From Punica granatum (Eukaryota > Streptophyta > Magnoliopsida > Myrtales > Lythraceae), in assembly GCF_007655135.1 (NCBI RefSeq), contig NC_045132.1, forward strand, positions 21,322,354 to 21,386,353: DNA of 64,000 nucleotides, given 5' to 3'. How positions within the stretch are numbered: position 1 is the stretch's first letter; each line of letters begins with the position of its first letter. Positions 19,434 to 19,544 of this stretch are shown one piece after another. The translations under genes and the position numbers were made by a program. The notes beneath the pieces are model-generated. The model had not been told where the DNA came from. It did not search any database and saw only the letters and a program-made list of their open reading frames with translations.

Positions 19434-19544
19434 GTGGGGCACCCTAAAGGGGTGCTACCTGATAACACAGGAAATTGCCCTCTGATATCTTCTCCCCTCT
19501 GCATTTTTCCTGTGTTTTCAGGTCACCCCTTCGGGGTACCCCTT
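19434..19544 (+). ncRNA. MIR398: MIR398-like microRNA precursor hairpin
   Basis: The 21-mer at 19511-19531 (start TGTGTTTTCAGG, end TCACCCCTT) differs from Arabidopsis miR398a as I remember it at one position (T for C at base 7). It lies on the 3' arm, as in known MIR398 precursors. The opposite arm at about 19447-19471 pairs with it almost fully: 22 of 23 positions from 19509 to 19531 pair, with one T:T mismatch and one 2-base bulge. Pairing continues below the duplex through ggggcaccc/gggtacccc. The loop is about 37 bases (19472-19508). miR398 guides cleavage of Cu/Zn superoxide dismutase, CCS and COX5b mRNAs and is induced through SPL7 when copper is short. No target lies in this window. 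Confidence 0.85.

Follow-up and report, generated by a model that had tools for sequence, protein, structure and literature searches.

The window, by which we mean the whole 64-kb stretch of Punica granatum DNA that was analysed, carries a predicted microRNA hairpin between two protein-coding genes on the forward strand (Table 1). The last long reading frame of the upstream gene, a GH79 gene, stops at 18944, about 490 nt 5' of the hairpin, while the start codon of the downstream gankyrin-like gene lies near 20402, about 860 nt 3' of it. None of the coding exons found extends into the hairpin. The protein obtained by joining the gankyrin-like exons matches a named Punica granatum protein with 100% identity across 237 aa. 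This identity, the open reading frames and the Pfam GH79 matches agree with the placement of the hairpin between these two genes in the sequence-only reading of this DNA. A similarity search in plasmids gave no match, as expected for a plant.

Table 1. Features at the hairpin and related loci elsewhere in the assembly (window positions unless a contig is named)
Feature	Position	Strand	Evidence or remark
GH79 (heparanase-like) gene, upstream	16210..18944	+	Open reading frames; Pfam GH79 N-terminal domain on two of three frames tested
TATA-like element TATAT	19385..19389	+	Some 50 nt 5' of the hairpin (position -51); weak evidence
MIR398a precursor hairpin with its lower stem, predicted	19431..19547	+	Fold z -7.1; Rfam MIR398
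Rfam MIR398 match (contig C6)	19437..19541	+	63.1 bits; 51.4 bits on the other strand
Predicted star strand (5p), 23 nt	19449..19471	+	Base pairing with 2-nt 3' overhangs; duplex energy -28.4
U7 form of miR398a-3p, predicted mature strand	19511..19531	+	20 of 21 letters of canonical miR398a
Gankyrin/NAS6-like gene (26S proteasome non-ATPase regulatory subunit 10)	20402..22230	+	Open frames, five exons as joined by us
MIR398b/c-type locus	C3:32991910-32992034	-	60.1 bits; 37.5 bits on the other strand
MIR398 copy under cut-off	C8:16605059-16605179		34.8 bits
Intron-bearing CSD1 gene (L017)	C7:8580500-8590000	-	Predicted miR398 site
Intron-bearing CSD1 gene (L018)	C5:7085500-7094500		Predicted miR398 site
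Intronless CSD1 copy (L002)	C5:25654800-25655063	-	Frame damage; miR398 site already joined

We folded positions 19420-19560 and obtained an energy of -61.8 kcal/mol. Shuffled sequences average -37.2 (z = -7.12), and 0 of 200 do as well. In this fold, a lower stem of 13 pairs begins at 19431, its 5' side covering 19431-19445, and the pairing partner of the mature strand is 19447-19469. A 2-nt bulge at 19455-19456 brings the predicted star strand to 23 nt. Besides this bulge, the predicted miRNA/star duplex contains one mismatch, U19517 (position 7 of the mature strand) against U19463. Plant microRNAs are recognized by a duplex with few mismatches and small bulges, and the hairpin has one mismatch and one 2-nt bulge. 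The long, well-paired stem with a near-complete opposite arm and an extended lower stem that had been described from the letters is thus reproduced by the predicted fold, with its 13-pair lower stem and star, and the folding check proposed at the same time places the 21-mer in a stable duplex. Among 4258 segments of 141 nt, taken in 30-nt steps over both strands, the sense hairpin ranks 6th by energy and the antisense 2nd. The fold energy by itself is not unique; the case rests on the family match and the structure rather than on energy.

Positions 19511-19531 (+) hold the 21-mer TGTGTTTTCAGGTCACCCCTT. At three or fewer mismatches, nothing else in the window matches the miR398 pattern, and 0 of 100 dinucleotide shuffles have a match. 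The 21-mer shares 20 of 21 letters with canonical miR398a, the sole change being U for C at position 7 (U7 and C7 forms hereafter). The sequence-only reading had noted a 21-mer on the 3' arm one base away from miR398a, with T for C at position 7, and both points stand on comparison of the letters and, for the arm, on the fold. Members of the MIR398 family have a conserved 21-nt mature sequence that starts with U and lies on the 3' arm (PMC9502370), and these features are present at 19511-19531. The Rfam MIR398 model (RF00695) matches the hairpin above its curated cut-off of 55 bits (E = 4.5e-12; 5.3e-12 in the genome-wide search), and the alignment spans the whole model, positions 1-109 of 109. 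Unlike the model, the window hairpin has a 2-nt insertion in the 5' arm and lacks the pair at mature position 7, where U stands against U and both sides are off consensus.

The genome-wide MIR398 search returned five matches at three places, of which two loci lie above the cut-off; it scored 46 of 45,716 first-look candidates, and weaker copies may be missed. The second locus above the cut-off, on contig C3, resembles the window locus in its family membership and in carrying the mature sequence on the 3' arm. This mature sequence is exactly canonical miR398b/c and differs from the U7 form at positions 7, 15 and 21. The third copy, on contig C8, has 3 of 21 letters changed relative to the C3 sequence, and its arms are unpaired in the minimum-energy fold. 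The surroundings of these two loci (C3:32988500-32995500 and C8:16602000-16609000) share five blocks that are 72-88% alike, one of which contains the hairpin, so that the two look like duplicates, with the C8 copy apparently decaying. At the same setting, the window locus has no block in common with either.

A search of the whole assembly for the mature pattern, allowing 2 mismatches, gave three matches, namely the window, the C3 miR398b/c and the opposite arm of the C3 hairpin, and 0 matches for a reversed control pattern. The canonical C7 miR398a was not found in this search. Within the assembly, the window locus is therefore the only one of miR398a type that was found, and any pomegranate primers, mimics or target predictions built on canonical miR398a use a letter not found in this assembly. 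In print, the U7 form was not found in the main texts covered. Of 34 papers that matched a literature search, 33 have the canonical C7 form, and one, on mouse, has an unrelated DNA match to a 14-letter core. Hence the variant carried by the sole a-type gene found in the assembly was not found in those main texts. This observation, and the fact that the letter is read from one assembly only, would fit an assembly error at an ordinary C7 MIR398a locus. We consider such an error very improbable, as the opposite base on the star arm is also off consensus (U instead of G) and one misread letter would not restore the pair.

MIR398a is an old and well-known plant microRNA gene, a regulator of copper/zinc superoxide dismutase. 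Its neighbour in the window, gankyrin, goes by the name of Nas6 in yeast. The Arabidopsis MIR398a gene likewise has a miR398a-type 3p on its 3' arm, and it differs from the window locus in having C at position 7 instead of U. Arabidopsis MIR398a is AT2G03445 (PMC7582911), AT2G03430 is NAS6 (PMC7125294) and the product of AT2G03430 is an ankyrin-repeat protein (PMC9934357). The closeness of the two Arabidopsis genes is judged from their locus numbers, not from a map, and, read in this way, it suggests that the neighbourhood of MIR398a and gankyrin may be conserved between pomegranate and Arabidopsis. Because gankyrin adjoins the hairpin here and NAS6 is near MIR398a by locus number in Arabidopsis, the window hairpin is likely orthologous to Arabidopsis MIR398a. 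Among the matches listed, the literature on Eucalyptus and other Myrtales does not name miR398.

The antisense strand of the hairpin (19437-19541, -) folds even better than the sense strand, at -69.5 kcal/mol, and resembles the MIR398 family at a score under the cut-off. Any near-perfect inverted repeat would behave in this way, including one that arose by chance or from a transposon (MITE-like) and merely resembles MIR398. However, a search of the 320-Mb assembly with the 141-nt hairpin gave one match at the sensitivity used, the hairpin contains a family-specific 21-mer, and gankyrin lies next to it, as in Arabidopsis judging by locus numbers. We rejected a chance inverted repeat on the Rfam match, the single genome match at that sensitivity and the E value of the genome search, and leave this origin next to no probability. 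At the level of sequence and predicted structure, the hairpin is confirmed as a real MIR398a gene, ordinary in kind, with a minor variant in the seed region of its mature strand.

Searching the genome for Sod_Cu gave 15 exon matches, and predicted miR398 sites are present in two pomegranate CSD1 genes, two CSD2 genes and CCS1. In both CSD1 genes, which bear introns, the site is joined by splicing of a 5' UTR intron (GAG/gtaagt ... ag/ATCACA in both, with slashes at the splice junctions). These spliced sites were read by eye after alignment of an intronless CSD1 copy to both genes; a scan of the unspliced CSD1 stretches found neither. The miR398 site would be present only in spliced CSD1 mRNA, and transcripts that retain the 5' UTR intron would escape miR398. 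For peanut CSD1, loss of the miR398 site by splicing has been described (PMC9502370). The intronless, frame-damaged copy on contig C5 is a CSD1 retrocopy and, if transcribed, is possibly a decoy for miR398. In addition, near-identical CSD1-like exon pieces occur on three contigs (L012 on C2, L013 on C464 and L015 on C1), perhaps carried there by a mobile element. In the two CSD2 genes, on contigs C3 and C6, the site lies over the codons for HAGDLGNI, and CCS1 on contig C4 has a good predicted site for miR398b/c. Three CCS-like copies (L007, L008 and L014) stand close together on contig C1 near 47.98-48.04 Mb; L007 and L014 have a weaker miR398-like site, and L008 has none in the stretch scanned.

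Table 2. Pairing energies (RNAduplex, kcal/mol) of three miR398 forms at seven predicted sites
Site	C7 form	U7 form	miR398b/c
CSD1, contig C7	-30.0	-27.4	-29.5
CSD1, contig C5	-30.0	-27.4	-29.4
CSD2, contig C3	-30.1	-27.8	-29.7
CSD2, contig C6	-26.2	-23.9	-31.6
CCS1, contig C4	-25.1	-22.4	-30.5
CCS copy L007, contig C1	-19.4	-23.5	-24.8
CCS copy L014, contig C1	-19.2	-23.3	-24.6

At five of the seven sites, the U7 form pairs 2.3-2.7 kcal/mol more weakly than the C7 form; at L007 and L014 it pairs more strongly by about 4 kcal/mol, and there miR398b/c is still better (Table 2). The variant letter had been expected to change target pairing at position 7 from C:G to U:G. This expectation holds for both spliced CSD1 sites and for CCS1 on contig C4, and fails at the two CSD2 sites owing to a register shift, in which U7 pairs with A and the predicted bulge follows position 9 rather than position 6. 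Co-evolution as an account of this A in CSD2 was rejected, as the A belongs to a stretch, GGGAAACAUA, that is also found in the Hevea site (PMC3368772). A compensating A opposite position 7 is absent from CSD1, where both genes keep G, and from CCS1 on contig C4, which also has G. L007 and L014 do have A opposite position 7, and in the region of L007 this base changes a codon from Gly to Glu; we set aside a fit to U7 here as well, as miR398b/c pairs better still with both copies. Among the sites computed, no target change looks made to fit U7.

The motif GTAC is recognized as that of SPL7 (PMC9502370). The 500 nt upstream of the window locus contain one GTAC, a count reached by 1671 of 2000 mononucleotide shuffles and hence no more than chance, whereas the 500 nt upstream of the C3 locus contain eight, which 2 of 2000 such shuffles reach. 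Over 1 kb upstream, the counts are 3 at the window locus versus 9 at the C3 locus, and the densest 170-nt stretches hold at most 3 GTAC anywhere in the 64-kb window versus 8 at C3. As no copper-response GTAC cluster was found close upstream of the window hairpin (500 nt and 1 kb), the gene is, judging from its promoter motifs, probably not copper-responsive through SPL7. The contrast between the two promoters offers a simple test of copper-dependent versus copper-independent supply of miR398, and it is this clear contrast, together with the fact that no second a-type gene was found in the assembly, that makes the locus mildly interesting.

From pomegranate pistils, pg-miR398a-3p and pg-miR398b are reported on the basis of small-RNA reads placed on the Tunisia genome with no mismatch; the two are among ten miRNAs picked for stem-loop qRT-PCR, where agreement over the set as a whole was 80% (PMC7013964). 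No other a-type sequence was found in this assembly, so pg-miR398a-3p probably derives from the window locus as its most likely source, with the qualification that this assembly and Tunisia may differ. A form named miR398b is reported from pomegranate seeds (PMC6006261). For Arabidopsis, MIR398a is described as not expressed or extremely low, and its overexpression as raising miR398 and lowering CSD1 (PMC7582911). Given that the Arabidopsis gene is hardly expressed, its pomegranate orthologue may be nearly silent.

Such silence raises the question of a decaying copy, in which the stem still folds while the gene is unexpressed, and in which U7 and the broken star pair would be the first marks of relaxed selection. 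The departure of both mature position 7 and its partner from the family pair points in this direction, as do the promoter lacking a GTAC cluster, the low expression of Arabidopsis MIR398a (PMC7582911) and the occurrence on contig C8 of a decaying MIR398 copy in the same genome. Yet the window locus is unlike that C8 copy: it keeps 20 of 21 mature letters and a stem with a z of -7.1, where the C8 copy scores 34.8 bits with 3 of 21 letters changed and its arms unpaired. Moreover, pg-miR398a-3p has been reported (PMC7013964). A decaying, silent gene is in our judgement distinctly improbable.

From what we computed, that is, the hairpin, the family match, the copies found, the target sites, the pairing energies and the promoter motif counts, we consider it highly probable that the locus is the pomegranate orthologue of MIR398a and makes a U7 miR398a that represses CSD1, CSD2 and CCS1. 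A short independent transcript would fold into the MIR398a hairpin, DCL1 would cut from the base of the stem and free the 21-nt U7 miR398a from the 3' arm, and AGO1 loaded with it would repress the CSD1, CSD2 and CCS1 mRNAs. Because U7 lowers pairing at five of the seven sites, this miR398a is probably a weaker companion of the canonical miR398b/c gene on contig C3, and presumably a copper-independent one. The work of miR398 might then even be split between a copper-responsive miR398b/c from C3 and a weaker, copper-independent U7 miR398a acting on CSD1, CSD2 and CCS1 and pairing better than the C7 form with the two diverged CCS copies on contig C1, such that a one-letter seed change tunes repression; we think this further step rather unlikely. 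The pomegranate MIR398a locus now has coordinates and predicted mature and star sequences.

Elsewhere in the window, a tRNA gene lies at 14438-14511 (+); its anticodon loop, as aligned by Rfam, shows AGU, which we read as threonine. On either side of a stretch absent from the gene model of a Punica granatum protein, a PPR protein encoded in the window agrees with that protein in every letter.
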